Made by a program: the position numbers and the translations under genes | Notes under the pieces: model-generated | Seen by the model: only the letters and a program-made list of their open reading frames with translations | What the model was told of the DNA's origin: nothing | Databases searched by the model: none | NCBI RefSeq assembly: GCF_022014595.1 | Contig: NZ_CP091740.1 | Span: 434,001 to 498,000, forward strand | Direction: 5' to 3' | Length of the DNA: 64,000 bases | Source of the DNA: Solitalea lacus | Lineage (GTDB): Bacteria > Bacteroidota > Bacteroidia > Sphingobacteriales > Sphingobacteriaceae | In this document: one piece after another, positions 42,354-60,452 of the stretch | How positions within the stretch are numbered: position 1 is the first letter of the stretch | Layout: every line of letters begins with the position of its first letter

Positions 42354-45089
42354 ATGAAAAAAATAAAATTAGTTTTCCTTTTAATGTTAATGCTTCCTTT
42401 ACTGTTGAAGGCACAGATTAGCGCTGTTGATGCAGGCAAAGGGTCGGCAAATAATACGGTTACAGATATTGTAATCGCGTTCAAAATGCATGTTGATATT
42501 GGTTATACAGATTGGGCAGAAGGCGTGCTTCAAAAATACAGCGGGCCCATGCTTGAAAAAACGTTAGACTATATTGATCAAACCGCTTCGTTGCCAAAAC
42601 AAGAACGGTTTGTGTGGACGATTCCCGCCTGGCCACTCCAGTACATGCTCGATAATTGTTCTCCCCGTAACAAAGTGCGACTGGAAAAGGCGATTAAAGA
42701 ACAAAGGATAGTTTCTCATGCCCTGCCATTTACAGTAGAAACGGAATCGAGCGACATGGAAAATCTTGTGCGTGGGCTTTCAATTGGCGATAACCTTAAT
42801 CGTCGTTTGGGTTTAAAACCTGCCCGCGATGCCAAGTTTACTGATGTGCCTGAGCATTCCTGGGTTATCCCCACCTTGCTAAAAAACGCTGGTGTCGATA
42901 TTTTACATATTGGCTGTAATTCAGGTTCCGCATCGCCTGATGTACCTACCTTGTTTTGGTGGCAAGGGCCTGATGGTTCAAAATTACTTACCTTTTATTG
43001 GGCACAATATTATGGATCAGGAATTTTACCGCCGAAAGACTGGCCTCACAAAACCTGGCTGGCCATGATTCATACGCACGAAAATACAGGGGCGCCAGAT
43101 CCTAAAGAGGTAGCAGCCTTGTTAAAAGAGGCCCGTGAGAAAATGCCTAATGCGCGGATACATATCGGCAGAATCGCTGACTTTTATGATTTGTTGATGA
43201 AGGAAAAACCGCAATTGCCAACGATTAAAGGCGATATGCCGGATACCTGGATTCATGGATTTATGTCGATGCCTGAAGAGGTGAAAACGAATAAAAAGTT
43301 TCAGCGTGAAACCTATGTGACCGAGCAGTTGAATACTCATATGAATTTTTGGAAGGGGAAAGACGTTTCTATTGATAGGTATGTGAATGCAGCTGCAGAA
43401 AACATGTTGCTTTTTGATGAACACACTTTTGGGGGAGCACTGTCACATGGCCATCAACTTTTTTGGAAATATGGTGACGATTTCAAGATTAACAAAGCTG
43501 AAGGGAATTATTATTTCCTGGAAAAGTCTTGGGAGGAGAAGTCGGCTTACACACGAAAAGCAGAAAAAATGATCTGGCCTATAAAGCGGAATCTTCTTTT
43601 TGAGTTGACCAAATCAGTGAAAGAGAAAACTTCGCATGTAACCGTTTATAACCCTTTGCCATGGACAAGAAACGGTCGCGTAAGTCTATTTCAAAGCTAT
43701 TATGAAAATCCGTCCCACCAGGTACCGCCCATTAAAGCGGTGAAAGACATGGAAACCGGTAAAGTGATACCTGTTTACCAGGATCACAACTTGCTTTCTT
43801 TCGATGCAACCGAAATCCCGGCAGGCGGTTACAAAACTTTTGTTGCGATGGAAAATGCTGAAGAAATGTCATCAACGCTTTCAGTCAATGAGCAAAAAAA
43901 TGTGTTGGAAAACAAATTCTTCAAAATAACAATCAATCCTTCAACGGGAACTTTGCTTTCAGTTCTTGATAAACAAAACAAGCGCGAATTGATCGATGCT
44001 AAAAGCAATTATGCTTTTGGTGAATACGTGTACCAACAACTGGGACAGGAACAAGTGGAGACCTATAACACGAGTTACGCAAAACCTAGCAGCCTTGTAT
44101 GGTCAGGACAGGAATTTATAAGGTTAAAGGGCCAGTTGCCTAACCAAACTGCCCTAAGGACCTCTGGAAAATGTAATAAAATAGAATGGCTTAATAATAA
44201 TAGCATCATACGTGCTACGGCCATGTGCCAGTTAAATGACAGCTCTGCACAACAATACCTGGTGAGCTATACATTGTACGAAAACCAACCGTATATCGAA
44301 ATTACAATTGGGCTGGATGGAAAGAAAGGAATACCTAACCCCGAAGCCGGCTGGATAGCATTCCCATTTGCTTTAGATAAACCTGAATACCGGTTGTTAC
44401 GTACAGGCGGCATTGTGGATCCCCAAAGGGATCTGGTGAACAATACCAATCACGACTTTTATTTTCTGAACACCTCGATGGCCATGTATGATCAGAAGGG
44501 TGGCATTGGCCTGAATTGCCCAAATACACCCGGCATAAGCATAGATCAACCCGGCATTGGCGTGTATTCCAAAACAAAAGCACTTACAACAGGAACCGTA
44601 CTGTCCAATTTGTACAATAATGTTTGGGGGACCAATTTCACTGAGTGGGTAGAAGGTTCGCATGCGGCTAAGTTTTATATCTGGAGTTATAAAAACTATG
44701 ATGCCGAATCTGCATTGGTTACACCCGCGGAAGAAACTCGCACGCCATTAAGCGCCGCTTTTTATGCTCCTTCAGGCAATGCCTATGCTTATAATTACGC
44801 AACAACAGGTGAACTGCCCAATATGCAAAGGGGACTCGAATTGGATCGTAAAGGTGTGCTGGTAACTTCTTTTAACAAAAAAGGAAATAGCGCAGTTATT
44901 CGTTTCTGGGAACAGGCAGGTAGCCCAGGTAAATGCACGGTAAAGCTTCCGGGAAATACCTCATACAAAAAGGCATACTTGTGTAATTTAAGAGGTGATC
45001 AACTGGATGAAAAGGGGATCTCAATTCTTAATAATGCTTTTTCATTTGAGGTCGGCGCCAACCAGCCATTGACATTTATGCTGAAATAA
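42354..45089 (+). CDS. Secreted GH38-like protein, alpha-mannosidase candidate (copy A)
   Basis: A 911-residue secreted protein. IAFKMHVDIGYTDW (H46, D48) corresponds to the metal-binding HxD at the start of the GH38 catalytic domain, and HALPFTVETESSDMENL, DVPEHSWVIPTLLKNAGVD, IKGDMPDTWIHG and EHTFGGALSHG follow in the expected order. The C-terminal half is beta-sandwich, as in GH38 (GGIVDPQRDLVNNTNHDF, GIGLNCPNTPG). GH38 enzymes are retaining alpha-mannosidases. The family text is divergent from classical members, so activity is predicted, not certain. A paralog is at 55406-58096. Confidence 0.7.
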   Translation: MKKIKLVFLLMLMLPLLLKAQISAVDAGKGSANNTVTDIVIAFKMHVDIGYTDWAEGVLQKYSGPMLEKTLDYIDQTASLPKQERFVWTIPAWPLQYMLDNCSPRNKVRLEKAIKEQRIVSHALPFTVETESSDMENLVRGLSIGDNLNRRLGLKPARDAKFTDVPEHSWVIPTLLKNAGVDILHIGCNSGSASPDVPTLFWWQGPDGSKLLTFYWAQYYGSGILPPKDWPHKTWLAMIHTHENTGAPDPKEVAALLKEAREKMPNARIHIGRIADFYDLLMKEKPQLPTIKGDMPDTWIHGFMSMPEEVKTNKKFQRETYVTEQLNTHMNFWKGKDVSIDRYVNAAAENMLLFDEHTFGGALSHGHQLFWKYGDDFKINKAEGNYYFLEKSWEEKSAYTRKAEKMIWPIKRNLLFELTKSVKEKTSHVTVYNPLPWTRNGRVSLFQSYYENPSHQVPPIKAVKDMETGKVIPVYQDHNLLSFDATEIPAGGYKTFVAMENAEEMSSTLSVNEQKNVLENKFFKITINPSTGTLLSVLDKQNKRELIDAKSNYAFGEYVYQQLGQEQVETYNTSYAKPSSLVWSGQEFIRLKGQLPNQTALRTSGKCNKIEWLNNNSIIRATAMCQLNDSSAQQYLVSYTLYENQPYIEITIGLDGKKGIPNPEAGWIAFPFALDKPEYRLLRTGGIVDPQRDLVNNTNHDFYFLNTSMAMYDQKGGIGLNCPNTPGISIDQPGIGVYSKTKALTTGTVLSNLYNNVWGTNFTEWVEGSHAAKFYIWSYKNYDAESALVTPAEETRTPLSAAFYAPSGNAYAYNYATTGELPNMQRGLELDRKGVLVTSFNKKGNSAVIRFWEQAGSPGKCTVKLPGNTSYKKAYLCNLRGDQLDEKGISILNNAFSFEVGANQPLTFMLK

Positions 45090-45219: not shown

Positions 45220-46668
45220 ATGAAATTAAAAACATTATTCACTCTTATTCTTCTTTTGACTTCTTCTGTTTGTATTCAAGCACAAGTCAGACTCCCAAAA
45301 GTATTGGGAAGTAATATGGTATTACAACGCGAAAAGCCGGTGCCTGTATGGGGATGGGCTGCTCCCGGCGAAAGTGTTACTGTATCTTTTTCGGGCCAGC
45401 AAAAAACGACGAAAACCGATATAGCTGGAAATTGGAAAGTAATGTTATCTCCTTTAAAAGCTTCGGATAAGCCCCAGGTATTGACAATAACTGCCAGCAA
45501 TACCATTACGCTTTCAAATATTCTTGTGGGTGAAGTATGGTTATGTTCAGGACAGTCGAATATGGAATATCCGATGAAGTTGAAGTCCAATTATGCAAAG
45601 CCTAAGAAAGGCGTGGACAGTTCCGCCCTGGAGTTAACCAAAACTTATCCCAATATTCGCATATTTAAAGTAGAAAAAGTACTAAGTACTCCTGACGTAA
45701 CAACTACCGGCTGGAATGAATGCGGTGGTACGGCCTTAGAGCAGTTTTCAGCGGCTGGTTTTTATTTCGCAAAATCTATTCAGGCAGAGCTGAACATACC
45801 AATTGGTGTCATTTCATCATCATGGGGTGGCAGCCGCATTGAGCCGTGGACACCTTCTGAGGCTTATGAAGTTTTACCCGCATTTGCAGCAGAGCGCGAT
45901 AAGACGCCTTTTATGGTTGATAAGGTTGTTCCTGGAATGAATTATAAAAGCATGATACAGCCTTTAGCCCCCTTTGCAATACGTGGCTTTCTATGGTACC
46001 AGGGCGAGTCAAATTGCCTGATCAATGATGGAATACGTTATGCCGATAAAATGCAGGCTTTGATTGATGGTTGGCGCAAGCAATGGGGAAATAACAAACT
46101 CCCTTTCTATTCAGTATTGATTGCTCCTTACTATTATTCCAAATACAAAAATGACATACTGCACATGCCGGAAACACTTCCAGAGCTTTGGGAAGGACAG
46201 ACACAAGCGTTAAAGATACCACATACAGGGATGGCTGTTGTGACTGACCTGGTGGATACCCTTACTGATATTCACCCATCTTATAAATGGGAAGTGGGCA
46301 GGAGGCTTGCTTTACTTTCAATGGCTAATGATTATAATAAAAAGGTGGTATGCAGTGGACCTGTTTTTAAGAGCATGAAGGTGAAAAATGATAAAGCCAT
46401 CTTGTCCTTCATTTATTCAGATGGATTAAAAACTATTGATAGTAAGCCTTTAAACTGGTTTACCATAGCTGGAAAGGATGGCAAATTTGTACCTGCAACA
46501 GCTAAAATTCAGGGTAATAAGATTATTGTTTCTGCTCCTGAAATTACCAAGCCTACCACAGTGCGTTTTGCATGGAACGAAGCAGCTATGCCAAATCTGT
46601 ATAACGGAGCAGGACTTCCTGCAGCTCCTTTTCGTACAGATGCCGCTGATTGGAATTATAAAAATTAA
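45220..46668 (+). CDS. Sialate O-acetylesterase-like (SASA) carbohydrate esterase
   Basis: A 482-residue secreted SGNH-type esterase. The nucleophile motif is WLCSGQSNMEYPM (Ser113), block III is RGFLWYQGESNC and the acid/base pair appears late (VTDLVDTLTDIHPSYKWEVGRRLA). Family members remove O-acetyl groups from sialic acids, xylans and other plant or fungal glycans. Sialic acid genes are absent here, so deacetylation of the PUL's polysaccharide is more likely. It is the last gene of the operon that starts at 38073 and is followed by a terminator. Confidence 0.85.
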   Translation: MKLKTLFTLILLLTSSVCIQAQVRLPKVLGSNMVLQREKPVPVWGWAAPGESVTVSFSGQQKTTKTDIAGNWKVMLSPLKASDKPQVLTITASNTITLSNILVGEVWLCSGQSNMEYPMKLKSNYAKPKKGVDSSALELTKTYPNIRIFKVEKVLSTPDVTTTGWNECGGTALEQFSAAGFYFAKSIQAELNIPIGVISSSWGGSRIEPWTPSEAYEVLPAFAAERDKTPFMVDKVVPGMNYKSMIQPLAPFAIRGFLWYQGESNCLINDGIRYADKMQALIDGWRKQWGNNKLPFYSVLIAPYYYSKYKNDILHMPETLPELWEGQTQALKIPHTGMAVVTDLVDTLTDIHPSYKWEVGRRLALLSMANDYNKKVVCSGPVFKSMKVKNDKAILSFIYSDGLKTIDSKPLNWFTIAGKDGKFVPATAKIQGNKIIVSAPEITKPTTVRFAWNEAAMPNLYNGAGLPAAPFRTDAADWNYKN

Positions 46669-46765: not shown

Positions 46766-46798
46766 ATCCCAGTTTCCGAGGAGGCTGGGATTTTTTTT
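46766..46798 (+). terminator. Rho-independent terminator after the esterase gene
   Basis: ATCCCAG and CTGGGAT pair, with an additional short TCC/GGA stem inside, followed by eight T residues. It ends the 38-46.7 kb operon. Confidence 0.75.
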
Positions 46799-46924: not shown

Positions 46925-46961
46925 ACGAAAACGTTTGAAAGGGTATTTTCAAACGTTTTCC
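46925..46961. promoter_or_regulatory. Paired LacI-type operator upstream of the oxygenase operon
   Basis: CGAAAACGTTTGAAA and TTTCAAACGTTTTC around a 4-nt core, CG dyads 22 bp apart, with outer GTGAAA / TTTCAC arms. It is the fourth good copy of the site. Confidence 0.75.
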
Positions 46962-46995
46962 TAGCCTGGTTTCACTTTTACTGCTTTGGCAAATT

Positions 46996-47081: not shown

Positions 47082-48074
47082 ATGAAAAATAATGAAACCA
47101 CTTCTATTGACCTGTCAAATTTCAGCAACCCGATTGCCAATATATTTGAACAGCCGAAATGCGCCGCTGAATGGGAACAATATGTCTTAACAGAGGAACA
47201 AATTCGTTCATTTCACGAAAACGGCTATCTCTCGGGTATTAAGATATTAAGCGAGGAACAGGTAGATCGGCTGAATGAAGAATTGACAAAGCTGCAATCC
47301 GTAACGGGCGAAGAAAAACAATTGTTTTATTATTATGAGAGCAACGAATCGGAAGACCCCAATAAAGTGCTTTTTCATGCAATTGGAGCATGGCGTATTA
47401 CACCAGGCTTTCATGACCTTATTTGGTCTCCAGCCTATCGCATGGCGGCATACCAGCTAATGGGACAATCGTTCAGGCTTTTTCACGATCAGTTATTTTG
47501 TAAGCCAGCCAAGCATGGTGGCGTGGTGGCATGGCACCAGGACTTTTCTTACTGGACTTTTACCAAACCGATGCAACACCTTACCTGCTGGATCGGCCTG
47601 GATGATGCCAGTGTAGAAAATGGTTGCCTTTACTATGTTCCGGGGAGTCACAAATGGGGTTTACTGCCAATCACAGGTCTTGCCGGCGATATGGATTCAG
47701 TTAAGCAGGTTCTGACCGAAGATCAATGTGTTGCATTTGAAAAGAAAGTGGCCAATGAACTGCCTAAGGGTTATGCAAGTTTTCATCATCCGCTGACAAT
47801 GCACGGCTCCTATGCCAATTATTCTGAAAGATCTCGCAGAGCCATAGTTATTAATGCAATGGGACATGAAACGATGGGCAACACGGCAGGATATGAACGA
47901 ATGGACGCTTTATCCAGCTTTCCGCCTATGGAACAAGATTTGGTGCTTAACAGCCAGTTTTTCCCTTTATTGTTCGATGATAAAGATCCCGAAATCAAAG
48001 ACCTTTTAAGTAGTATTCCAGTTCTTAAAAATGGTTCCATAGTGAATGCATCACATTCAGTGGAGCTTAAATAG
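47082..48074 (+). CDS. Fe(II)/2-oxoglutarate oxygenase, PhyH family (copy 1)
   Basis: A 330-residue phytanoyl-CoA dioxygenase-like protein, probably cytoplasmic (no signal peptide). The iron facial triad is H152 and D154 in AWHQDFSYWTF and H241 in PLTMHGSYANYSE, with the 2-oxoglutarate arginine near 250-253. I start it at the ATG at 47082; the frame also opens at a TTG six bases upstream. Substrate is unknown: PhyH enzymes hydroxylate many small molecules. Its place as first gene of a sugar-transport operon suggests action on an imported sugar or sugar ether. Confidence 0.85.
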   Translation: MKNNETTSIDLSNFSNPIANIFEQPKCAAEWEQYVLTEEQIRSFHENGYLSGIKILSEEQVDRLNEELTKLQSVTGEEKQLFYYYESNESEDPNKVLFHAIGAWRITPGFHDLIWSPAYRMAAYQLMGQSFRLFHDQLFCKPAKHGGVVAWHQDFSYWTFTKPMQHLTCWIGLDDASVENGCLYYVPGSHKWGLLPITGLAGDMDSVKQVLTEDQCVAFEKKVANELPKGYASFHHPLTMHGSYANYSERSRRAIVINAMGHETMGNTAGYERMDALSSFPPMEQDLVLNSQFFPLLFDDKDPEIKDLLSSIPVLKNGSIVNASHSVELK

Positions 48075-48110
48075 AAACCTACGATCCATTCACTTTTTAA
48101 ATTCTTTATC

Positions 48111-49511
48111 TTGAATACCTCAACCAAAAATACCGTTGCCTTCGAAATTGATGAGGCAACGATGCCAGGCAAAGCAAGCACCAAGTCCAATATGTGGTTC
48201 ATTATGCTTGTTAGTGGCGTAGCTGCATTAGGTGGACTATTGTTTGGGTTTGATACAGCCATCATTTCCGGCGCGATCCCTTATATAAAAGACTACTTTG
48301 TCATGGATGAATACATATTAGGGTGGTCGGTAAGTTCCATTCTGGTAGGATGTGCTATAGGGGCAATGTTTGCCGGATATTTCGCCGACAAATATGGAAG
48401 ACGACTCATCCTGATTGTGTGTGCTTTACTGTTTGCGGTTTCAGGTATAGGAGCAGGAATTTCACATCAGTTATTTGTGTTTATCCTGTTTCGTCTGATT
48501 GGCGGCTTGGGAGTAGGTGCAGCAGCTATGGTGTCACCCATGTACATTGCGGAAATGTCGCCGGCAAAATGGCGGGGAAGGCTCGTTGCCTGTTACCAAA
48601 TGGCTATTGTGATCGGGATCCTTGTGGCCTACTTTGCCAACTATGTTTTCGATGGAATGGGTGATAATAGCTGGAGATGGATGTTTGCTTCGCAGGCAGC
48701 ACCGTCATTATTGTTTTTTCTGTTGTTGCTATTGGTGCCTGAAACGCCCAGATGGCTTATCATGAAAGGAAAGAAGGCTGCCGCAACAGCCATTCTTGAA
48801 AAGATTTCGGAGACTGAATCAATCGAAAAAGAGGTGGCCGAAATTGAAAACAGTTTTCACGCTAAGCATAGTGTTTCCATCAAACAGCTGTTCATCAAAA
48901 CCTATAGACCAGTTGTATTGATCGGAATAATAGTGGCTGTATTTCAGCAGGTAACGGGTATCAATTCGATCATATACTATGCGCCTGTTATTTTTAAGGA
49001 GACAGGTATTAGTAGCTCCTCGTCCCTATTACAAACCATTGCGATCGGTGTCGTTAATATCATATCAACTTTTATAGCTATTGGATTGGTAGATAAAGTG
49101 GGCAGGAAGAAACTGCTGTTAATAGGCAGCGTGTTGATGGGAGTCTCATTGGTAGCAGTGGGGCTTTGTTTTCGCTACAGTTATTTTGATCATTATATCG
49201 TACTCATCTTCATGTTGCTATATGTTGCTTCGTTCGGGGCTACAATGGGCGCAGTGGTTTGGGTATATATCTCCGAAATTTTTCCTAACCTTATTCGCAG
49301 CCTGGCATTATCAGTGGCAACATTATCCTTGTGGCTGGCCGACTTTGCCGTAACCCTTAGCTTCCCGGTAATGACAAAACATTTAGGTGTGGCTTACACC
49401 ATGTTTACTTATGCTGTATTCTGTGCTTTGGCCTTTGTTTATATGTTCTATAATGTGAAGGAAACCAAAAGTAAATCATTGGAAGAAATTGAGACGTTAT
49501 TCATCTCATAA
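48111..49511 (+). CDS. MFS sugar:proton symporter (XylE/GLUT type)
   Basis: A 466-residue, 12-span sugar porter. Family marks are GGLLFGFDTAIISGAI, ADKYGRR between spans 2 and 3, PETPRWLIMKGK before span 7, QQVTGINSIIYYAPVIF in span 7, and DKVGRKKLLLIG. It should import a neutral monosaccharide such as xylose, glucose, galactose or a methylated variant. The first usable start is TTG at 48111; ATG at 48162 is the more usual codon and gives a 449-residue protein. It lies between the two PhyH genes. Confidence 0.9.
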   Translation: MNTSTKNTVAFEIDEATMPGKASTKSNMWFIMLVSGVAALGGLLFGFDTAIISGAIPYIKDYFVMDEYILGWSVSSILVGCAIGAMFAGYFADKYGRRLILIVCALLFAVSGIGAGISHQLFVFILFRLIGGLGVGAAAMVSPMYIAEMSPAKWRGRLVACYQMAIVIGILVAYFANYVFDGMGDNSWRWMFASQAAPSLLFFLLLLLVPETPRWLIMKGKKAAATAILEKISETESIEKEVAEIENSFHAKHSVSIKQLFIKTYRPVVLIGIIVAVFQQVTGINSIIYYAPVIFKETGISSSSSLLQTIAIGVVNIISTFIAIGLVDKVGRKKLLLIGSVLMGVSLVAVGLCFRYSYFDHYIVLIFMLLYVASFGATMGAVVWVYISEIFPNLIRSLALSVATLSLWLADFAVTLSFPVMTKHLGVAYTMFTYAVFCALAFVYMFYNVKETKSKSLEEIETLFIS

Positions 49512-49524
49512 AACATTTTACACT

Positions 49525-50400
49525 ATGAACAGAGAACATTCTTATATAAAAAACGGAAGTATCAGTAAAGAAAACATCGCTTTCTATGCTGAATATGGAT
49601 ACCTGGTTGCATCTGATCTTTTGTCGCCTTTTGAAACTGAAGAGTTAAAAAAGGAAACTGCAGCTATTTTCCGTGGAAATCGCGGTGATGTAGATGGTCT
49701 GCTGCCTGTTGACGAGCATGAAATGGATGCCGAAGTATTGAAAAAATATGTGGCCATTCATTTTCCACATAAGATTTCCCCGGTGATTTATAAGTATTTG
49801 TTTCACCAAAAGATCATTAGTGTATTGGTGAATGTTATTAGTCCCAATGTGAAGTGCATGCAATCCATGTTGTTTGTGAAGGGACCTGGCAAAGCGGGGC
49901 AGGCATGGCACCAGGATGAGTTTTATATTCCTACTCGCGACCAATCACTTACCGGCGTTTGGATCGCTATTGACGACGCTTCCATCGAAAATGGTTGTCT
50001 CTGGATCATTCCAGGTCGGCCCGGGCATATGATGAGGAGAGTGAAGAATGATTCCAATGAATATGCTGATGTGGATACCATTGATGTATCTCCTTACAGT
50101 TCTGATCAGGTGATTCCGGTAGAAGTCAAAAAAGGTTCGGTAGTATTCTTTAATGGATATACCCTGCACAGCTCACGTCGTAATAAAACAAGTGATTGTT
50201 TCCGCACCGCCTTGGTCAATCATTATATGAGTGCCGAGTCAATGTTGCCTTGGGATCAGGATGGAAAGTTACCGTCTACCGAAGATTTGCGAGACATTGT
50301 GATGGTAGCCGGAGACGATCCTTATGCCTGGAAAGGATTAGAAGATGCCAATAAGCCTTATTTACGCCCTGAAGTATTACAAATTAAAACCGAATTATAA
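49525..50400 (+). CDS. Fe(II)/2-oxoglutarate oxygenase, PhyH family (copy 2)
   Basis: A 291-residue PhyH-type oxygenase without signal peptide. The triad is H129 and D131 in QAWHQDEFYIPT and H215 in NGYTLHSSRRN, with an arginine near 227. It is only distantly like copy 1, so the two probably use different substrates or steps. The ATG at 49525 starts 13 nt after the transporter stop; the frame is open further upstream only inside the transporter gene. It is followed after 3 nt by the isomerase-like gene. Confidence 0.87.
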   Translation: MNREHSYIKNGSISKENIAFYAEYGYLVASDLLSPFETEELKKETAAIFRGNRGDVDGLLPVDEHEMDAEVLKKYVAIHFPHKISPVIYKYLFHQKIISVLVNVISPNVKCMQSMLFVKGPGKAGQAWHQDEFYIPTRDQSLTGVWIAIDDASIENGCLWIIPGRPGHMMRRVKNDSNEYADVDTIDVSPYSSDQVIPVEVKKGSVVFFNGYTLHSSRRNKTSDCFRTALVNHYMSAESMLPWDQDGKLPSTEDLRDIVMVAGDDPYAWKGLEDANKPYLRPEVLQIKTEL

Positions 50401-50403
50401 CCT

Positions 50404-51219
50404 ATGGAGATTCAATTTTATTGCCCCCGTTGGGGAAGTGAAGCCTTAAGTTGGGCAGCTTTTGGTCAAAAAGTAAGTGAGGCCGGTTATGACGGCTTTG
50501 AATATGGCATGGCTCATAATGCCAGCGAACAAGAAATGCACCAAGTTCTAAGCGTCGCCGAAAAAAATAAGCTGAAGATTATTGTACAACACTACGATAC
50601 TGTCGAAGCGGAATTTTCAAAACATATCGAACTATATAGTGCCTGGCTTGAAAAAGTAAAGTCTTTTCCGTGCGTAAAGATTAATTCCCAGACCGGTCGC
50701 GACTTTTTTAACATGGAGCAGAATAGCGCTCTGATAGCGACTGCAACACTGTTTACTCGTCAAACAGGGGTGAATGTAGTGCATGAAACCCATCGTAATA
50801 AATTCTCCTTTGCGGCTCATACAACCAAAGAATATCTCCACAAAATACCGGATCTGAAGCTTACACTCGACGCATCACATTGGGTATGTGTGGCAGAATC
50901 ATTCTTAGAAGATCAGGCTGAAACAATGGAGCTGGCTATTCAGCGTACCGAGCATATCCATGCAAGAGTAGGTTATCTTTGTGGACCGCAGATTCCGGAT
51001 CCGCGCATGCCCGAATGGCAGCATGCATTGAATGCGCATCTGAGCTGGTGGGATAAGGTGGTTGAAAGAAAGAAAAAAGAAAACACTTTATTAACGATCG
51101 CACCGGAGTTTGGTCCATATCCTTATATGGTGCACCTGCCGGCTAATTCATCGCCCATCTGCAATCAATGGGATGTGAATGTTCATATGATGGAATTGTT
51201 GAGAAACCGATACAACTAA
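50404..51219 (+). CDS. Sugar phosphate isomerase/epimerase-like TIM barrel
   Basis: A 271-residue protein of the xylose-isomerase-like TIM-barrel superfamily. Visible metal-site regions are AGYDGFEYGMA, VNVVHETHRNKFSF (Glu and His), LKLTLDASHWVCVAES (Asp and His), HIHARVGYLCGPQ and LTIAPEFGPYPYM (Glu). These fit the E, D, H, E metal set of the family. No exact reaction can be read out. Its position 3 nt after an oxygenase gene suggests that it acts on the oxygenase product or a related sugar. Confidence 0.8.
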   Translation: MEIQFYCPRWGSEALSWAAFGQKVSEAGYDGFEYGMAHNASEQEMHQVLSVAEKNKLKIIVQHYDTVEAEFSKHIELYSAWLEKVKSFPCVKINSQTGRDFFNMEQNSALIATATLFTRQTGVNVVHETHRNKFSFAAHTTKEYLHKIPDLKLTLDASHWVCVAESFLEDQAETMELAIQRTEHIHARVGYLCGPQIPDPRMPEWQHALNAHLSWWDKVVERKKKENTLLTIAPEFGPYPYMVHLPANSSPICNQWDVNVHMMELLRNRYN

Positions 51220-51235: not shown

Positions 51236-53173
51236 ATGAAAAGAGTCTTTATTTTATTACTATCATTAAGTAGCATTTCTGCTTTTGCAAAAGACAAATC
51301 AACTAATGATAAACTTCCTCACGCTAAGGAATACCATGTTTCGGTGAATGGAAGTGATAAGAATGACGGGTCCGTAACGAAGCCTTTTAAAACCATTATG
51401 GCTGCGTCGAACGCGGCCATGCCGGGCGATGTAATTACCGTACATGCGGGTATTTATCGTGAACAGATCACACCACCAAGGGGAGGCAATTCCGATCAGG
51501 AAAGAATCGTATACCAGGCTGCCAAAGGCGAGAAAGTAGAGATCAAAGGCTCCGAAATCATCAAAGGTTGGAAGAAACTGGAAAACGATACCTGGGAAGC
51601 AAAGATCCCGAACAGTTTTTTTGGAACATTTAATCCTTATAGCGACCTGATCCGTGGCGATTGGTTTTTGCCTACACCTAAAGAACGGAAATATCACACA
51701 GGTGCAGTGTATTTAAACGGCGACTGGTTGATGGAAGCTGCTTCACAACCGGAAGTAATGAAAGCTGCTGATGAAAAAAATCAACTGTGGTGGGCCGAAG
51801 TGGATGCAACCACTACTACCATTTGGGCACAATTTAAAAATGTAGATCCCAACAAGGAAACCACCGAGATCAATGTACGACAAACTGTTTTTTATCCCAA
51901 GAAACCTTTTGTCAATTTCATTACCGTAAGAGGGTTTTTGATGCAACATGCCGCCACCAACTGGGCGCCACCAACTGCAGAGCAAATGGGCTTGATCGGC
52001 ACCAACTGGAGCCGTGGTTGGATCATCGAAAACAATACGGTTCAATATTCAAAATGTTCAGGTATTGCCTTGGGCAAGCATGGAGATGAATGGGACAACA
52101 AGAATACTGAATCCGCCGAAGGTTATGAAGGCACAATCAGGCGGGCATTGGCTTTTGGATGGAATAAGGGGACAGTCGGAGGACACCTGGTGCGAAACAA
52201 TCAAATTGCCTATTGTGAGCAAACTGGTATCGTTGGCAGCATGGGCTGTGCGTTCAGCCGGGTTGAAAACAACCAGATCCATGATATTCATGTTCGTAAA
52301 TTATTTGCAGGCTGGGAACAGGCTGCCATAAAATTCCATGGGGCGGTGGATGTAGTCATCAGTGGCAATCATATTTACCGGTCGGTTATGGGCATGTGGC
52401 TGGATTGGATGGCGCAAGGGCTACAGGTAAAAGGCAATCTGATGCATGATAATGGGCGGGACCTTTTTATCGAAGTTAGTCATGGCCCTGCTTTGGTAAG
52501 TAACAATATTTCGCTTTCTGAGAATAGCGTTTTAATGAACTCCCAGGGTACAGCTTTCGTCCATAATCTTTTTGGCGGCAAGTTCAGCATTGTATATTAT
52601 GATAGCCGCCTGACGCCTTATCTTTTGCCCCATTCCACACATGTGGTAGCCACTCATGATAATCCAAGTGGAGAAGCACAGTTTATTAATAACCTGTTTG
52701 TAAATGGAAGTGATGTAAGCAATTATAGTAGTGCGTTATTGCCGGTATCATTTGATGGAAATGTGTACACGAAGGGATCTGTTCGGGCCATTGGTGTAAA
52801 GGAGAAAAGGGGAATGGGGGAATTGAAAAAGGATGCGGCCGAGACAATGAAAAAATATAAAGAGCAGTTGGCAACAGAAACAAATGCGTTGGTGAAAAAT
52901 GAATTTGACGCTGCAGATACTTTGTTGCTGCAGGAAAATGGTGTGTACCTGGAAATAGCGTTGGATAAAGATTGGTTGGCCCAAAAGAGAAATTTGGTAA
53001 CCTCATCGATTTTAGGCAAAGCCCGCATCTCTAACGCCCAATTTGAAAACCCTGATGGTTCACCATTGAAAATAGATACTGATTATTTCGGCAATAAGCG
53101 CAATACAGCCAATCCTTCACCGGGTGCTTTTGAAATAAAGGAAAACGGAAAACAAAAGATAAAAGTGTGGTAA
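51236..53173 (+). CDS. Secreted beta-helix protein, paralog 1
   Basis: A 645-residue secreted protein (signal peptide about 1-18). HVSVNGSDKNDGSVTKPFKT begins a DUF1565-like beta-helix opening, followed by an insert domain (GWKKLENDTWEAKIPN to about 210) and the parallel helix with NNTVQYSKCSGIALGKHGD, RNNQIAYCEQTGIVGSMG and ENNQIHDIHVRKLFAGWEQAAIKFHG. Such proteins are glycosidases or polysaccharide lyases; GH141-like is the nearest idea. Its first 115 residues are almost identical to paralog 2, while the rest is closer to paralog 3. It is 16 nt after the isomerase-like gene. Confidence 0.65.
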   Translation: MKRVFILLLSLSSISAFAKDKSTNDKLPHAKEYHVSVNGSDKNDGSVTKPFKTIMAASNAAMPGDVITVHAGIYREQITPPRGGNSDQERIVYQAAKGEKVEIKGSEIIKGWKKLENDTWEAKIPNSFFGTFNPYSDLIRGDWFLPTPKERKYHTGAVYLNGDWLMEAASQPEVMKAADEKNQLWWAEVDATTTTIWAQFKNVDPNKETTEINVRQTVFYPKKPFVNFITVRGFLMQHAATNWAPPTAEQMGLIGTNWSRGWIIENNTVQYSKCSGIALGKHGDEWDNKNTESAEGYEGTIRRALAFGWNKGTVGGHLVRNNQIAYCEQTGIVGSMGCAFSRVENNQIHDIHVRKLFAGWEQAAIKFHGAVDVVISGNHIYRSVMGMWLDWMAQGLQVKGNLMHDNGRDLFIEVSHGPALVSNNISLSENSVLMNSQGTAFVHNLFGGKFSIVYYDSRLTPYLLPHSTHVVATHDNPSGEAQFINNLFVNGSDVSNYSSALLPVSFDGNVYTKGSVRAIGVKEKRGMGELKKDAAETMKKYKEQLATETNALVKNEFDAADTLLLQENGVYLEIALDKDWLAQKRNLVTSSILGKARISNAQFENPDGSPLKIDTDYFGNKRNTANPSPGAFEIKENGKQKIKVW

Positions 53174-53191
53174 CCCGTCAGTAAATTAAAA

Positions 53192-55126
53192 ATGAAAAAA
53201 ATATTAATTGCAGTATTTGCATTAAGCAGCTTTTCTGCTTTTGCAAAAGACAAGTCAAATAATGATAAACTTCCTCACGCCAAGGAGTACCATGTGTCAG
53301 TGAATGGAAGTGATAAGAATGACGGATCATTAAGCAAACCCTTTAAAACCATTACGGCGGCGTCGAACGTGGCGGTGCCCGGCGATGTAATTACCGTACA
53401 TGCTGGTATTTACCGTGAACAAATCACACCCCCAAGAGGAGGCAATTCCGATCAGGAAAGAATCGTATACCAAGCCGCCAAAGGCGAGAAAGTAGAGATT
53501 AAAGGCTCCGAGATCATCAAAGGTTGGAAGAAACTGGAAAACGATACTTGGGTGGTAAAGATACCCAATAGTTTTTTTGGCAAATTCAACCCCTATAGCG
53601 ACACTATACATGGTGATTGGTTTTGGCCAAAGCCGAAAGAAAGAAAATACCATACAGGAGCTGTATATCTAAAAGGTGACTGGCTGATGGAGGCTGAAAA
53701 CAAAGATGAAGTGATGCAGCATGCTGATCTGAAAAATCCGCTCTGGTGGGCTGAAGTGGATTCAACTACTACAACCCTATTTGCTCAGTTCAAGTATGCT
53801 GATCCCAACAGGGAGACTGTTGAAATAAACGTACGGCAAACCGTATTTTATCCTAAGGTACCTTATATCAATTTTATCACCGTTCGTGGCTTTACTATGG
53901 AGCATGCGGCCACCAACTGGGCTTCCTGTACAGCAGAACAAAAGGGATTACTGGGAACACATTGGAGCAAGGGGTGGATTATTGAAGACAATATTATTCA
54001 GTACTCCATGTGCGCTGGGATTACTTTGGGTAAATACGGTGACAAATGGGATAATACCTGTGAAGAACGGGCGGAAAGTTATGTGGCAACTGTTGAGCGG
54101 GCCCAGGCAAATGGCTGGAATAAAAGTACTGTTGGCAGCCATGTTGTTCGAAATAACCAAATAGCTTATTGTGAACAGGTAGGTATCGTTGGCAGCATGG
54201 GCTGTTCTTTTAGCACCATTGAAGGCAATCTAATTCACGATATTTTTACGAGAGGCATGTTCAGTGGTGCAGAGATGGCAGGAATCAAGTTTCACGGAGC
54301 GATTGATACCCGAATTTGCAATAATCATATTTATCATACCTATTTCGGTATTTGGCTCGATTGGATGGCGCAAGGAGCACAGGTGAGCAATAACTTATTA
54401 CATGAAAATTCCTGGGATCTGTTTACGGAGGTAACGCACGGTCCTATTTTAATTAGCAATAATGTAATGCTGTCGCCCACTAATTTAAAGATGAATGCAA
54501 GTGGTGTGGCTTTTGTTCACAATCTTTTTGCAGGGAGGATGGATGTAATTACCTATGAAAAGCGATTAACGCCTTATCATAAGCCTCATTCTACAGATAT
54601 TGCAGGATTTCATGATAACCCCGGCGGAGGCCTGCAGTTTATCAATAATTTATTCGTCGATGGTGGAAACGCCAGACCGTGCGACAGCATGTTGTTGCCG
54701 GTAAAATTTGCTGGAAATGTGTACGTCAAGGGTGCTAACATATTGCAGCCCATTGATTATCACAGGAAAAGCAGTCGAAAAATGCTCGAGCTGCCTGCTC
54801 TGCAATGCAAAACAGAAATAGATGCTCTAATGAAACCAGAGTTTGATGCAGCTGTTGGGTTGGTCAATGAGAATGGCAATGCCTATTTGAATATCTGTTT
54901 TGATAATAGCTGGTTGGTTGAGCAAAAAAGAAAATTGGTTACAACTTCGGTGCTCGGCAGTGCGATAATTCCCAATCAGCCTTTTGAGGACCGGGATGGG
55001 AAGGTGTTGAGCATTGATACCGATTATTTGGGCAACAAGCGTAATTCGGACAATCCTTCTCCAGGGCCTTTTGAAATAAAGAATAGTGGGAAACAAAGAA
55101 TTAAACTATGGGCGGAAGGCCGGTAA
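53192..55126 (+). CDS. Secreted beta-helix protein, paralog 2
   Basis: A 644-residue paralog of the preceding gene, 18 nt downstream. Residues 18-115 match paralog 1 at more than 90 per cent by eye; immediately after ENDTW the text becomes VVKIPNSFFGKFNPYS...IHGDWFWP, identical in large part to paralog 3, and later parts diverge from both (WASCTAEQKGLLG, ERAESYVATVERAQANGW). The C-terminus ends in KLWAEGR, where the other paralogs end in KVW or RVWSVK, and overlaps the scar of another copy. Function as for paralog 1. Confidence 0.65.
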   Translation: MKKILIAVFALSSFSAFAKDKSNNDKLPHAKEYHVSVNGSDKNDGSLSKPFKTITAASNVAVPGDVITVHAGIYREQITPPRGGNSDQERIVYQAAKGEKVEIKGSEIIKGWKKLENDTWVVKIPNSFFGKFNPYSDTIHGDWFWPKPKERKYHTGAVYLKGDWLMEAENKDEVMQHADLKNPLWWAEVDSTTTTLFAQFKYADPNRETVEINVRQTVFYPKVPYINFITVRGFTMEHAATNWASCTAEQKGLLGTHWSKGWIIEDNIIQYSMCAGITLGKYGDKWDNTCEERAESYVATVERAQANGWNKSTVGSHVVRNNQIAYCEQVGIVGSMGCSFSTIEGNLIHDIFTRGMFSGAEMAGIKFHGAIDTRICNNHIYHTYFGIWLDWMAQGAQVSNNLLHENSWDLFTEVTHGPILISNNVMLSPTNLKMNASGVAFVHNLFAGRMDVITYEKRLTPYHKPHSTDIAGFHDNPGGGLQFINNLFVDGGNARPCDSMLLPVKFAGNVYVKGANILQPIDYHRKSSRKMLELPALQCKTEIDALMKPEFDAAVGLVNENGNAYLNICFDNSWLVEQKRKLVTTSVLGSAIIPNQPFEDRDGKVLSIDTDYLGNKRNSDNPSPGPFEIKNSGKQRIKLWAEGR

Positions 55127-55405: not shown

Positions 55406-58096
55406 ATGAACAAGTTCTGCATTGGGATACTCTCCCTGTTGTCGCTAAATCTTACAGCAACAACAGTTTGTGCACAAACCTCATCTCTAAAGGACAAACA
55501 AACGGAAAGTTTTACACCCAGCAAAGCCGTGAAAGAGATTATTGTGGTGTTTAAAACACACTTCGATATTGGCTACACCCATCGGGTAAAGGATCTTGTG
55601 CAGTATTACCGTACCGACATGATCGATAAGGCCCTCAAAGTAATGGACGAATCGAAGTCACTGCCTGCCGAACAGCAATTCAAATGGACCGCTCCGGGTT
55701 GGGTGATGTCCAAAGTGATGGAGCCCTGGCCAGGACAGACAGCGGAGCGGCGACAGAAACTTGATGAAGCTTTTCGAACCGGAAAATTTATTACCCATGC
55801 CATGCCCTTTACTGTTGAAACGGATCTATGCGGACCGGAATTGGTGACACGTGGACTGGGTTTTGCTTCCCGACTCACAAGGCAATACCAACTTCCTCTT
55901 CCGAATTCAGCGAAAGTGACCGATATGCCTTCTCATTCACGTGAGCTGGCTACCGTTCTCAGCAATGCGGGTGTGAAGTTTTTACATATAGGGTGCAATT
56001 GGCCAAGCGGGTTTGTACAAACACCGGGACTGTTTTGGTGGGAAGGACCTGATGGTACACGGTTGCTGACCTTCTATTCAAGTGTTTACGGTACAACAAC
56101 AGGGCTTCGTTGGCCAAATGAGTGGGGAGGTGGTGAGCATTTTGTTGGACGTGGATTATTGCCTCCATCTGACTGGCCTTATGCAGTTTGGCCTGCCATT
56201 TTTGTAACATTGGATAATAGCGGCCCTCCTACGGCATCGCAGGTAAAAGCATTGTTTGATGAAGCAATGAAAAAGATGCCGGGCGTGAAAATTAAAGTTG
56301 GTACGATGGATGAGTTTGCCAACGCCTTGCTGGCGACACACCCTGATTTACCAGTGGTGAAAGGCGATATGCCAGATACCTGGGTGCATGGCAGTATGTG
56401 CGACCCGGGCGGAATGAGCATGGCCCGCCAATCGGCTCCATTGATCGCAACAGATGCTACGTTCAATACACAATTGAAAACATGGGGGCTGCATGTACCT
56501 GCTGTTGCCGATTCTGTTGCCAAGGCTTATGAACTGATGGCTTTGTATGCAGAGCATACCTGGGGAGGCAGCAAATCGGTTAACAAATACGGCGAGGCAT
56601 TTAAACAATTGCCGCCTTCCCAATATGCTGATCTGGAAGCATCATGGGAAGATAAAACAGATTATAGCCGTGGCGCATGGAGTATCGCTAATCGTTTGAA
56701 ACAGAACAATCTCGCCTTGCTTGCAAAATCTGTAAAATCTGCTCCCAACAGTATCATCGTGTATAATCCTCTTCCCTGGCAGCGAAGTGGCCTGATAGAG
56801 GTAAATGGGCAACAGGTGTTTGTCAAGGATATACCTCCCAGTGGGTACAAAACTATTCCTGCGCCGGATAAGCAGATTGTGCAAATTTCTGCCAACAAAT
56901 TCATCGAGAATCAATTCTATAAGATAACATTCGATGCCAACAAAGGGACCATATCATCATTGATTGACAAACATACCGGCCGCGATTGGGCCGCTAATAT
57001 CTCAGGACGCCAGACTGGTCAATATTTTAACGAACGGTTTACCTATGAGCAGGCGGCAAGCTATACGGCCGCTTACCAGCAGGGACGTGGAGAGCAAGCC
57101 GTGGGGGAAAAGAAAGGTTGGCTGCATCCCGGCATTAACAAGCCTGGTATGATCTCAGAAAATGTTGTTCCTTATCGCATGGCGTCTCCAGCCGGAGGAA
57201 AACTGGTTATCAACGTCAATGGATTACAGCAAACCGCCATCCTTGAAATGCCCGCTGATACAGCCAGACATTTACCCGGCTCACGATTAAAAGTAACCCT
57301 TACCGAGGGACAGCCTTATATCGATCTGGAGATAACCATTCTCAACAAGGCGAAAGATAACTGGCCCGAGGCTGACTGGCTCGCTTTGCCGTTCAATATA
57401 AAGGATCCTGTTTTTAAAGTGTATCGCCCGCTGGGGATCATGAATCCGGCTACTGATATTTTGAAAGGCGCCAACAAAGACCTTTATTCGGTAGGTCAGG
57501 GTGTTACTCTAACCGATGCTGCCGGTAACGGCATTGCTGTGTGCCCGATCGATCATCCGCTGATTAGTTTGGATACGCCGGGCTGCTGGAAATTCTCTCT
57601 CGATTTTGTTCCTAAAAAACCTGTTGTATATCTCAACCTCTACAATAACCAGTGGAATACAAATTATCGGTACTGGTATCCGGGCTCCTGGAGTTCCCGT
57701 GTAAGGATCTGGTCATTAGACAAATATAAAACACAGCCTGAAAGCATGACTGTTCCGGCATTGGAAACAAGTTATCCGCTACAGGCAGTAGTGGCAGGAA
57801 ACGGCGATGGCACATTACCTGTATCCCAAAAGGGAGTAGAGTTGTCTCGCAAAGGCATACTGGTTACAGCATTTGGTGATGATCCCGATGGCAACAAGGG
57901 TACGTTGCTGCGTTTATGGGAAATGGCTGGAAAGTCGGGAGAGGTTGCTATTGCCCTGTCGGGACAAAAACATTTTACCATGGCCACACCTGTTAATCTT
58001 CGTGGCGAAGTAAATGGAAAGACGATAAAAATTATCAACGGAAAATTCAGTTGCCCTATCAATGGGTTTGGGCCCGCAAGTTTTATTCTGGAATAA
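55406..58096 (+). CDS. Secreted GH38-like protein, alpha-mannosidase candidate (copy B)
   Basis: An 896-residue secreted paralog of the protein at 42354-45089, with the same order of marks: VVFKTHFDIGYTHR (H52, D54), HAMPFTVETDLCGPELVTRG, VTDMPSHSRELATVLSNAGV, VVKGDMPDTWVHGSM and EHTWGGSKSVNKYG, then a beta-rich C-terminal half ending PASFILE. The two copies are clearly diverged, which suggests different linkages rather than recent duplication. A short duplicate of its last codons occurs at 60527-60550. Confidence 0.7.
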   Translation: MNKFCIGILSLLSLNLTATTVCAQTSSLKDKQTESFTPSKAVKEIIVVFKTHFDIGYTHRVKDLVQYYRTDMIDKALKVMDESKSLPAEQQFKWTAPGWVMSKVMEPWPGQTAERRQKLDEAFRTGKFITHAMPFTVETDLCGPELVTRGLGFASRLTRQYQLPLPNSAKVTDMPSHSRELATVLSNAGVKFLHIGCNWPSGFVQTPGLFWWEGPDGTRLLTFYSSVYGTTTGLRWPNEWGGGEHFVGRGLLPPSDWPYAVWPAIFVTLDNSGPPTASQVKALFDEAMKKMPGVKIKVGTMDEFANALLATHPDLPVVKGDMPDTWVHGSMCDPGGMSMARQSAPLIATDATFNTQLKTWGLHVPAVADSVAKAYELMALYAEHTWGGSKSVNKYGEAFKQLPPSQYADLEASWEDKTDYSRGAWSIANRLKQNNLALLAKSVKSAPNSIIVYNPLPWQRSGLIEVNGQQVFVKDIPPSGYKTIPAPDKQIVQISANKFIENQFYKITFDANKGTISSLIDKHTGRDWAANISGRQTGQYFNERFTYEQAASYTAAYQQGRGEQAVGEKKGWLHPGINKPGMISENVVPYRMASPAGGKLVINVNGLQQTAILEMPADTARHLPGSRLKVTLTEGQPYIDLEITILNKAKDNWPEADWLALPFNIKDPVFKVYRPLGIMNPATDILKGANKDLYSVGQGVTLTDAAGNGIAVCPIDHPLISLDTPGCWKFSLDFVPKKPVVYLNLYNNQWNTNYRYWYPGSWSSRVRIWSLDKYKTQPESMTVPALETSYPLQAVVAGNGDGTLPVSQKGVELSRKGILVTAFGDDPDGNKGTLLRLWEMAGKSGEVAIALSGQKHFTMATPVNLRGEVNGKTIKIINGKFSCPINGFGPASFILE

Positions 58097-58247: not shown

Positions 58248-60452
58248 ATGATTTCAGATAAACTAACTTCTTTACGGTTTTTGGTATTACTGACTATTCC
58301 GCTTCTTATTTCTCTTTCAGCGGCTTGTCAATTGAATCAAATCGTCCAGAATTATATTCCGGCGTTTGACAATATAAACCATCCGCAGATAGCTTATTGG
58401 TTTTTCTCAAAAGACCAATTAGACGAAACCAAATACAAAAACAAAATTGACAGTCTCTCCGCTTTCAGCAAATACACACTTATTTTTCTGACAGCAAGAA
58501 ATGGGGTTAATTTCTATGATTCGAAAACTATGCACCCCATTTTTGATAACATAGTTAAGTATGCACATGCTAAGGGTTTAAAAATAGGGCTTCAGTTATG
58601 GGCCCCGGAAGATACCGTGCCAATCGCTAATACAGCACGGATGGTGCAGGAGGGAGAAATACTACTGGATGATAATGGCAAAGGCAAATTCACATCCACT
58701 GCTAAGCATGTAAGACGACTTACGCAATTATTGTTAAAAAGCGAATTATTCAGGGTATATGCTTTTAAAAAATCGGGAGATGGGTTTTATATACCAGGCA
58801 GCTTAAAGGATATTACTTCACAGGTACAAAAAACAGAAACAAGAAATAGCGTATCCGTTTCAATTGATCAAAGCCCTGCCATGAAAGGTTACACCGTTTA
58901 TGTACTAACTCAGCATTACTACAATTACTGGAGTAATTACAATCCCGAAGCTGTAGCCAGGCTTACGAATACTTTAAAAATATATTCTGAAATACCGTTC
59001 GATGGTGTAGGTCTTGATGAGTACACCAATTTGCCTGTTATCCCTGCATGGGAATTAAAAAATGGAAATGTTTTCAGGGAACGACCCTATTCACTGTCCA
59101 TGGATTCTGTTTTTAAAGCCAAAACAGGCTTAAACCTGGTGCAAACATTTTTTGACATGCGTTATGCACCAGTCGGCAATCCAGGCATAAGGGCTAAAGC
59201 AATTAATAATTATATGGCCGTTATGCGTAGCGGTACTATGGGCCTGGAAACGGAAATTTACCGTGCCGGCAAACTTTATTTTGGCCAAAATACGTTCATT
59301 GGCTTGCATGATACACACCATAACACGTTAGATGGCGATGAAATATGGCAAACAGGGCTGAACTGGTGGAACATTAAAAGGGACTATGGCCACACTGATG
59401 AAGGAACTTCAAAACCTACCCAAATTGGAATTGGTTTTAGCTATCCAATGAATGCGATGTATAACATGTATTATAACAAAAGCCTTGACAGAATATGGAC
59501 AAAAGCATTAACCGATTTAAGATATGGCATTCGTACCCATTACCATGCAATCAATGATGTGCAGAGCTGGGGAGTAAGTATAGAGCAACCTTCAGCACAA
59601 GCCCAAATCAATAAAGTAGAAAATTGTGCCCGGTTATTAAACAGGTTTAATCCTTCTTTCCCGAAAATAAAATTATTGGTATTGTTTGGGATGGAGGCGC
59701 TTTCTAACTGGTACCCTGATACGCTGTCAAGAAACGCCTACGATATAAATGGTAAATTAAAAATAGAAGAAAAGGCAAGCCAGCTATGGGATGCGGGCTA
59801 TTTTAATGCATTGGTTCCTACCGATGAAATTGCTGATGGCAGGTTGCGCATTGGCGCCAATGGCAAGCCGGTTTTACAAGGACACGAATTTGATGCAATT
59901 GTTTTTTTATATCCACAGTTTGCAAGGGAAAGCACTACAAAATTTATACAGGAGTACCTTAAAAAGGGTGGTAAACTATTAGTAGAAGGAAACTGTACCA
60001 CCGACTTTAACGGCAATGATATTACAGAAGAATGGAAGAAGATTTTAGAGAAATCGGTTGCTGCTTCTTTTTCATTGGAGGCAATGTCAAAGCTGGGTGT
60101 CAAAAAAAACGAATTACAAAATGGTGTATTAAACGAAGATAACTCCTATGTATTTACCGATACAAAATCCCTCAGGGACGGTGCTTTAACAAGCTTTACT
60201 TTTACACATAATAACTTGACATTTTCTGGTAATTATATAGGCCTGGCAGCTGTAAAAATTGATAAGAAAAACAACATTGAAAAGATGGCTGTCACTGGGT
60301 TTTCATCCTTGAAAAAAAACGGCAACACCATTTTTGCGCTGAATAAACCTGCAGATGTTTTCATAGAAGTAAAATACAAAAAAGTGTATATAACAATTGC
60401 TGGCAATGAAAATGAATCACGAATTATCGCCAGCGAAATTTTAAACCCATAG
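58248..60452 (+). CDS. Putative lipoprotein TIM-barrel glycosidase, family unknown
   Basis: A 734-residue protein with a hydrophobic N-terminus and a possible lipobox LSAAC near residue 26. Residues about 45-420 look like a TIM barrel (HPQIAYWFFSKDQLD, GLKIGLQLWAPEDT, EIPFDGVGLDEYTNLP with candidate acids D and E, TFIGLHDTHHNTLDGDE). Residues about 480-600 resemble a GATase-like domain as found after the barrel of GH42-type enzymes (IKLLVLFGMEALSNWY, FDAIVFLYPQFA, YLKKGGKLLVEGNC). I do not recognise a named family. It sits between two copies of the GH38 3' end. Confidence 0.5.
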   Translation: MISDKLTSLRFLVLLTIPLLISLSAACQLNQIVQNYIPAFDNINHPQIAYWFFSKDQLDETKYKNKIDSLSAFSKYTLIFLTARNGVNFYDSKTMHPIFDNIVKYAHAKGLKIGLQLWAPEDTVPIANTARMVQEGEILLDDNGKGKFTSTAKHVRRLTQLLLKSELFRVYAFKKSGDGFYIPGSLKDITSQVQKTETRNSVSVSIDQSPAMKGYTVYVLTQHYYNYWSNYNPEAVARLTNTLKIYSEIPFDGVGLDEYTNLPVIPAWELKNGNVFRERPYSLSMDSVFKAKTGLNLVQTFFDMRYAPVGNPGIRAKAINNYMAVMRSGTMGLETEIYRAGKLYFGQNTFIGLHDTHHNTLDGDEIWQTGLNWWNIKRDYGHTDEGTSKPTQIGIGFSYPMNAMYNMYYNKSLDRIWTKALTDLRYGIRTHYHAINDVQSWGVSIEQPSAQAQINKVENCARLLNRFNPSFPKIKLLVLFGMEALSNWYPDTLSRNAYDINGKLKIEEKASQLWDAGYFNALVPTDEIADGRLRIGANGKPVLQGHEFDAIVFLYPQFARESTTKFIQEYLKKGGKLLVEGNCTTDFNGNDITEEWKKILEKSVAASFSLEAMSKLGVKKNELQNGVLNEDNSYVFTDTKSLRDGALTSFTFTHNNLTFSGNYIGLAAVKIDKKNNIEKMAVTGFSSLKKNGNTIFALNKPADVFIEVKYKKVYITIAGNENESRIIASEILNP

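Follow-up and report, generated by a model that had tools for sequence, protein, structure and literature searches.

The stretch analysed here (the window) covers 64,000 nucleotides, positions 434001-498000 of the 4.40 Mb single-contig genome of Solitalea lacus (NZ_CP091740.1), and includes a polysaccharide utilization locus (PUL) in which four genes follow one another closely: a PhyH-type Fe(II)/2-oxoglutarate oxygenase (PhyH1), a sugar porter of the major facilitator superfamily (MFS), a second such oxygenase (PhyH2), and a triose-phosphate isomerase (TIM) barrel protein (Table 1). An earlier note, made from the letters alone, had named the same four genes, and in-frame open reading frames (ORFs), profile matches, and tight packing bear it out, with gaps of 36 nt (PhyH1-MFS), 13 nt (MFS-PhyH2), and, exactly as the note had stated, 3 nt (PhyH2-TIM). 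For PhyH2, the ATG at 49525 was adopted as the start in place of the mechanically assigned TTG at 49489. The two oxygenases score 118.3 (PhyH1) and 124.2 bits (PhyH2) against Pfam PhyH (cut-off 22), and no signal peptide was seen in PhyH1 on inspection by eye. The porter belongs to the sugar porter family (Pfam Sugar_tr, 422 bits; NCBIfam TIGR00879, 403.6 bits, cut-off 237.8) and falls below the cut-off of the XylE model (417 bits, cut-off 608). The TIM barrel falls below the gathering cut-off of AP_endonuc_2 (27.9 bits against 31.1), with no credible sequence match in the PDB set and no placement in an NCBIfam family.

The HxD...H metal triad that the note had read in both oxygenases is intact. 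Together with the arginine that follows it, presumably a 2-oxoglutarate contact, it is invariant in 30 of 30 aligned rows for PhyH1 (H152, D154, H241, R252) and in 6 of 6 for PhyH2 (H129, D131, H215, R227). Fold was assessed on an AlphaFold2 model of PhyH1 only (mean predicted local distance difference test score, pLDDT, 88.6), which has the double-stranded beta-helix and whose best PDB fold matches are PhyH-type oxygenases: RESC14 (template modelling score, TM, 0.78/0.82), then SnoK, MysH, proline hydroxylase, and SnoN; PHYHD1 comes at rank 29. RESC14 belongs to the RNA-editing complex of trypanosome mitochondria, where it is a subunit with the PhyH fold; it is the nearest solved relative of PhyH1 (29% identity, TM about 0.8), and its ancestry is possibly of interest given ribose demethylation by PhyH enzymes. 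By sequence, the closest solved protein to PhyH2 is human PHYHD1, against which PhyH2 scores 66.5 bits and PhyH1 48.6 bits. According to the available text of one report (PMC12709175, Nucleic Acids Research, December 2025), PHYHD1, a metagenomic PhyH protein (FJS), and bacterial PhyH proteins use 2-oxoglutarate to strip 2'-O-methyl groups from free nucleosides, the methyl carbon leaving as formaldehyde; 2'-O-demethylation is there called widespread in PF05721, human PHYH being inactive, and K102, H105, Q139, and W277 are given as ribose contacts of PHYHD1. Our comparison covered Q139 alone of these four; it aligns with Gln113 of PhyH2, which is invariant in all six PhyH2 rows.

What ties PhyH1 relatives to demethylation is the company that some of them keep. 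A scan of the genome collection with PhyH1 returned 66 loci, of which 27 are close (numbered L005-L029, L032, and L054). Same-strand neighbors were recorded no further than 10 kb to either side of PhyH1, one flank being under 4 kb at L017, L020, L022, and L025. Near PhyH1 stood an MFS porter in 14 of the 27 (38-75% identity), the TIM protein in 13, a GH38-like protein (glycoside hydrolase, GH) in 13 (three of them at 24% identity), PhyH2 in 5, and a zinc alcohol dehydrogenase (ADH) with an esterase in 4 (L009, L027, L028, and L032). At L027, L028, and L032 the order is dehydrogenase-esterase-PhyH1, with 11-13 nt separating esterase and PhyH1; at L009, PhyH1 (77% identical) is followed by a regulator, a SASA-type esterase, the dehydrogenase-esterase pair (beginning 2.7 kb past PhyH1), FdhD (301 bits, cut-off 269), a formate-dehydrogenase-like oxidoreductase of the FdhF/YdeP family (903 bits, cut-off 582), and TIM. 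The close relatives L009 and L023 have in common their upstream genes, PhyH1, the regulator, and TIM, and PhyH2 in one stands in place of the dehydrogenase, esterase, FdhD, and FdhF/YdeP of L009; a desaturase-like protein after TIM also appeared in this comparison. The dehydrogenase beside PhyH1 in these relatives is under the cut-offs of named formaldehyde dehydrogenase models, and the best PDB matches of the L009 enzyme are 8H2A and 8H2B. These are FoADH and ZoADH, encoded, in the available part of the source, beside a P450 that demethylates 6-O-methylgalactose (PMC10033563).

The association was quantified in the family of Seonamhaeicola, where 397 genomes yielded 40 loci with a FoADH/ZoADH-type dehydrogenase (E ≤ 1e-100; neighborhoods within the fetched 19 kb). 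An esterase accompanies all 40, a P450 stands at 27 (with a reductase in 27 of 27 and a ferredoxin in 26), and a PhyH1 homologue at 11, 8 without P450 and 3 with it; for each of P450, ferredoxin, reductase, PhyH, and esterase, Pfam confirmed the assignment of one member. The P450 at L153 has its best PDB match in 6g5o (768 bits), which we take to be the Zobellia demethylase. PhyH1 itself gave 41 hits in 40 of the 397 genomes, and 19 genomes carry both PhyH1 and the dehydrogenase against 4.0 expected. Eleven PhyH1-dehydrogenase pairs are separated by less than 10 kb against 0.09 expected by position, related genomes not being independent; in ten of the eleven the distance is no more than 2.2 kb. 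On the PhyH1 tree the dehydrogenase trait falls in separate parts (4 changes), with sampling biased towards it: flavobacterial rows L144-L169 were picked through the dehydrogenase, and free of this bias the count is 11 of 41. The tree was built without L063-L070 (distant) and the duplicate loci L128, L129, L133, and L136, and the PhyH1 ORF of L035 was lost in ORF picking. At the five remaining dehydrogenase loci (L141, L152, L161, L165, and L170; marine) the pair occurs with neither oxygenase, and these loci may conceal a demethylase of a third kind.

Because the pair follows two unrelated oxygenases, we infer that the common factor is the product of demethylation. We favor, at a probability of about 0.55, the reading that PhyH1 and probably PhyH2 are 2-oxoglutarate-dependent O-demethylases of imported methyl-sugars, in S. 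lacus plausibly a methylated uronate that would be passed on to UxaC and UxuA. The four genes would form the intracellular end of a PUL whose glycan contains uronates and is capped with methyl groups: monosaccharides would be released by secreted glycosidases, the O-methyl sugar would enter via the porter, and PhyH1 would hydroxylate the O-CH3 carbon using Fe(II), O2, and 2-oxoglutarate, PhyH2 probably doing likewise on a second position or a second methyl sugar. The hemiacetal would collapse to free sugar and formaldehyde, and the sugar, which the TIM barrel would isomerize or epimerize, would go to ordinary catabolism, with glucuronate as a candidate in this genome, via UxaC, a short-chain dehydrogenase/reductase (SDR), UxuA, 2-keto-3-deoxygluconate (KDG) kinase, and 2-keto-3-deoxy-6-phosphogluconate (KDPG) aldolase. 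Oxidative demethylation had been offered as a possible task in the earlier note, and the replacement or accompaniment of the P450 demethylase by PhyH1 homologues at the same pair, with the ribose O-demethylases of the PhyH family (in the available text of PMC12709175), gives it indirect support. The isomerization step that the note appended finds its sole basis in the fold of the TIM model (pLDDT 84.2, from 10 sequences), nearest to D-tagatose 3-epimerase (TMq about 0.65). The likeness to D-tagatose/D-allulose 3-epimerases extends to invariant acidic and histidine residues (E128, D156, H159, H186, and E235, 10 of 10 rows), and the difference lies in sequence, with 12-16% identity to the top 20 fold matches.

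Several observations weigh against this reading. In the Seonamhaeicola family 30 of the 41 PhyH1 hits are not near the dehydrogenase, and the pair was met with PhyH1 homologues and not with PhyH2. PhyH1 has His135 where PHYHD1 has Gln139 (aligned by way of PhyH2). In the S. lacus genome the best match to the dehydrogenase is only 31% identical and that to the esterase 28%, neither being a close relative; FdhD is absent, and HxlA does not pass its cut-off, for which reason ribulose monophosphate-type formaldehyde fixation was rejected there. One relative, L179, carries MurQ with NagB/NagP-like amino-sugar genes, and several verrucomicrobial and one planctomycete relative have no recognized sugar-gene neighbors. 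FoADH and ZoADH, moreover, showed no activity on formaldehyde with or without several thiols in the assays described in the available part of PMC10033563, which weighs on the simplest form of the common-product argument. The pair is thus tied to demethylation genetically and not yet chemically, and with both characterized enzymes inactive we did not adopt it as a proven formaldehyde detoxification system. Nor did we adopt TIM and ADH as mutually exclusive alternatives with TIM as another formaldehyde handler: among 85 PhyH1 rows, TIM is present in 22, ADH in 14, and both in 1 against about 3.6 expected, a deficit too weak to use and confounded by ancestry and by how loci were picked.

Of the note's operon as a set of four, the packing in the window stands; the conservation survey it had proposed found MFS, PhyH2, and TIM all beside PhyH1 in just 3 of the 27 close loci, and a fixed four-gene operon as a general rule was rejected. 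PhyH1 is an accessory gene, since it was found (E ≤ 1e-60) in 20 of 301 genomes of the host's family, its own included, with no match in 3 other genomes of the genus among those listed; one genome search covered 22 of 23 genomes, that of L006 being left out. In the Chitinophaga family (234 genomes), PhyH1 is present in 43 at the same threshold and PhyH2 in 5. Three of these five have PhyH2 clustered with PhyH1, at a distance of up to about 10 kb, and the other two have no PhyH1 passing 1e-60: L176 lies on a contig of only 5.5 kb, and L175 still has MFS-PhyH2-TIM. This arrangement, an identity of just 26% between the oxygenases, and the restriction of the dehydrogenase-esterase link to PhyH1 homologues favor a division of labor in which PhyH1 alone is an O-demethylase and MFS-PhyH2-TIM is a cassette of its own, PhyH2 hydroxylating or oxidizing a sugar carbon and TIM epimerizing or isomerizing the product. 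We consider this possible at perhaps half the weight of the favored reading. TIM is not private to PhyH2, lying less than 100 nt from PhyH1 at L177 and, with no PhyH2 of at least 60% identity within 10 kb, at L014, L015, L018, L179, L181, L184, L185, L192, and L193, and it is PhyH2 that scores higher against the proven demethylase PHYHD1.

As to the substrate, uronate-type breakdown is, on profile and identity matches, a recurrent feature around PhyH1 relatives. Ten of 40 lower-identity PhyH1 loci of the Chitinophaga family were fetched, mostly the best-scoring; six (L179, L181, L182, and L184-L186) carry a transporter 58-60% identical to the MFS gene opening the glucuronate operon of the window, and two (L179 and L181) carry UxuA at 54-55% identity. 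A UxaA/GarD-type dehydratase is present at 8 of 9 marine subfamily-B loci with ADH as against 1 of 24 (L160) with P450 alone; the galactarate dehydratase model gives one scanned member 257 bits (cut-off 731), and next to this member lies a tagaturonate reductase over cut-off. At L179 (8546-14554) the PhyH1-TIM pair has a NagB-like deaminase on one side and an N-acetylmuramic acid-6-phosphate etherase (MurQ, over cut-off) on the other, after which come NagP-like and hexuronate-type transporters. A methylated uronate is thus our leading but weak guess for the substrate in the host; 4-O-methyl-glucuronate, which the note had suggested, agrees with a glucuronate operon that has imperfect operator copies before it and is kept as a candidate only. 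Some marine PhyH1 loci (L145, L164, and L169) hold a fucose permease (over cut-off at L145), an alpha-L-fucosidase, or an amidohydrolase that we take to be of the lactonase type. Together with the many PhyH enzymes of known task that are C-H hydroxylases, they lend something to the idea that both oxygenases hydroxylate sugar carbons, such as the C6 methyl of a deoxy sugar, and not O-methyl groups. We regard this as improbable, as it leaves unexplained both the dehydrogenase-esterase pair held in common with the P450 O-demethylase and the formate-dehydrogenase-like gene of L009.

The PUL operator that the note had placed ahead of the four genes was recovered as ACGAAAACGTTTGAAA half-sites forming a 34-nt palindrome before PhyH1. 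The window holds 10 such half-sites against 0.06 expected, for a pattern derived from these very sites, and further copies precede susC and hypB. The sites would be read by the LacI-family protein divergent from susC. Operator-like half-sites also precede the MFS-SDR-UxuA-UxaC run, and PhyH1 may for this reason share a regulon with the glucuronate pathway. Because a terminator-like hairpin lies upstream, PhyH1 probably opens a transcription unit; the hairpin is weak by itself (18 terminator-like sites in the scan against 13.9 in shuffles). Same-strand genes of the GH120-insertion type resume 16 nt past TIM, so 51219 is not necessarily where the unit ends. Several verrucomicrobial PhyH1 relatives within L033-L061, and the planctomycete L046, adjoin DUF1501, DUF1549/DUF1553, or planctomycete-cytochrome genes. 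The functional breadth of the PhyH family and the several verrucomicrobial contexts without recognized sugar genes would suit a non-glycan substrate (nucleosides, a lipid, a siderophore, or a secondary metabolite), the oxygenases being placed in the PUL by regulation or chance. The operator common to the PUL and PhyH1 speaks against this, as do the 27 close loci, 14 of which have a sugar porter on the same strand at a distance of up to about 10 kb and 13 of which have TIM, and we think it the least likely of the explanations considered.

The remainder of the PUL and the glucuronate operon is listed in Table 1; the run of MFS, SDR, UxuA, UxaC, PfkB kinase, and KDPG-type aldolase is continued by a GH95 gene. 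GH92, GH38-like, GH120-insertion, GH95, acetylesterase, and glucuronate genes would presumably suit a glucuronoxylomannan-like polymer, an identification we do not adopt. A group II intron-type reverse transcriptase/maturase (30411-31688) lies between susD and the next PUL gene, and a DDE transposase (36346-37713, minus strand) interrupts the PUL directly before an operator copy. Three hypothetical proteins (31885-33954, 38016-39866, and 58248-60452) matched no Pfam family over cut-off, also when hits with E up to 1 were admitted. No P450, ferredoxin, or reductase is among the annotated genes of the window, to which the search for P450 was confined.

Table 1. Features of the window discussed in the text (window coordinates).
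Feature	Position	Strand	Remarks
Operator-like copy before glucuronate operon	14222-14259	.	half-sites at 14222 and 14244, 2 mismatches each
MFS transporter	14292-15674	+	first gene of D-glucuronate operon (14292-20849)
SDR oxidoreductase	15742-16503	+	presumed fructuronate reductase (specificity inferred)
UxuA mannonate dehydratase	16530-17747	+	509.7 bits, cut-off 199.6
UxaC glucuronate isomerase	17793-19247	+	585.8 bits, cut-off 387
PfkB sugar kinase	19196-20209	+	presumed KDG kinase (specificity inferred)
KDPG/KHG aldolase family	20112-20849	+	
LacI-family regulator	23244-24251	-	divergent from susC; presumed reader of operator
Operator copy before susC	24310-24347	.	one half-site with 2 mismatches
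Operator copy before susC	24544-24581	.	palindrome
susC and susD	24697-29762	+	
Operator copy before hypB	37857-37894	.	palindrome
GH92	39906-42293	+	same cluster
GH38-like protein	42354-45089	+	
SASA-type acetylesterase	45220-46668	+	
Terminator-like hairpin	46766-46791	+	between SASA gene and PhyH1
Palindromic LacI-type operator before PhyH1	46925-46962	.	full 34-nt palindrome 46927-46960
PhyH1	47082-48074	+	PF05721 Fe(II)/2-oxoglutarate oxygenase; ATG start, 330 amino acids
Sugar porter MFS (XylE-like)	48111-49511	+	TTG start as listed
PhyH2	49525-50400	+	second PF05721 oxygenase; ATG start, 291 amino acids
AP_endonuc_2-like TIM barrel	50404-51219	+	271 amino acids
Two GH120-insertion beta-helix proteins	51236-55126	+	downstream of TIM
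Second GH38-like protein	55406-58096	+	

Sugars of plants, algae, and fungi are commonly capped with methyl ethers, which have to come off before bacteria can use the carbon. In the open-licence literature we found no report of a PhyH or 2-oxoglutarate-dependent O-demethylase in a PUL, and the only PUL route found there was the P450 system for 6-O-methylgalactose. As set out in the available part of PMC10033563, the porphyran-type system of Zobellia and Formosa likewise has oxidative O-demethylation proposed within a PUL, and it is beside the same dehydrogenase-esterase pair that the oxygenases of relatives such as L009, L027, L028, and L032 stand. It differs in requiring a cytochrome P450 with ferredoxin and reductase, alongside the ADH and esterase, where we propose a single-protein Fe/2-oxoglutarate enzyme, and in a pair that the S. 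lacus genome lacks. PHYHD1 and FJS resemble PhyH1 and PhyH2 in family (PF05721), triad, and the proposed conversion of a sugar O-methyl group to formaldehyde; they act on free nucleosides (in the available text of PMC12709175, where glycans are not treated), whereas for PhyH1, which has no aligned Gln139, and for PhyH2 the proposed substrates are imported sugars of the glycan.

The four genes, apparently regulated as part of a PUL, are best read as a putative system for 2-oxoglutarate-dependent methyl-sugar demethylation, which would give a function already known from PULs a new enzymatic form. More speculatively, and with odds that we put well short of even, PhyH1 might be a dedicated O-methyl-uronate demethylase, acting on the 4-O-methyl-glucuronate of plant xylans or gums or on a relative of it as the entry step to UxaC/UxuA, with PhyH oxygenases serving as portable demethylation modules that replace or stand beside P450 across PULs of very different glycans and have TIM as a recurrent partner. 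If demethylation by these enzymes is true, a second enzyme class, one that needs no redox partner, would broaden the scope of both prediction and use, and two unassigned oxygenase subfamilies would gain a testable substrate class. It would also offer a fresh handle on the unexplained dehydrogenase-esterase pair, because the pair would follow the product, formaldehyde, and not the P450.

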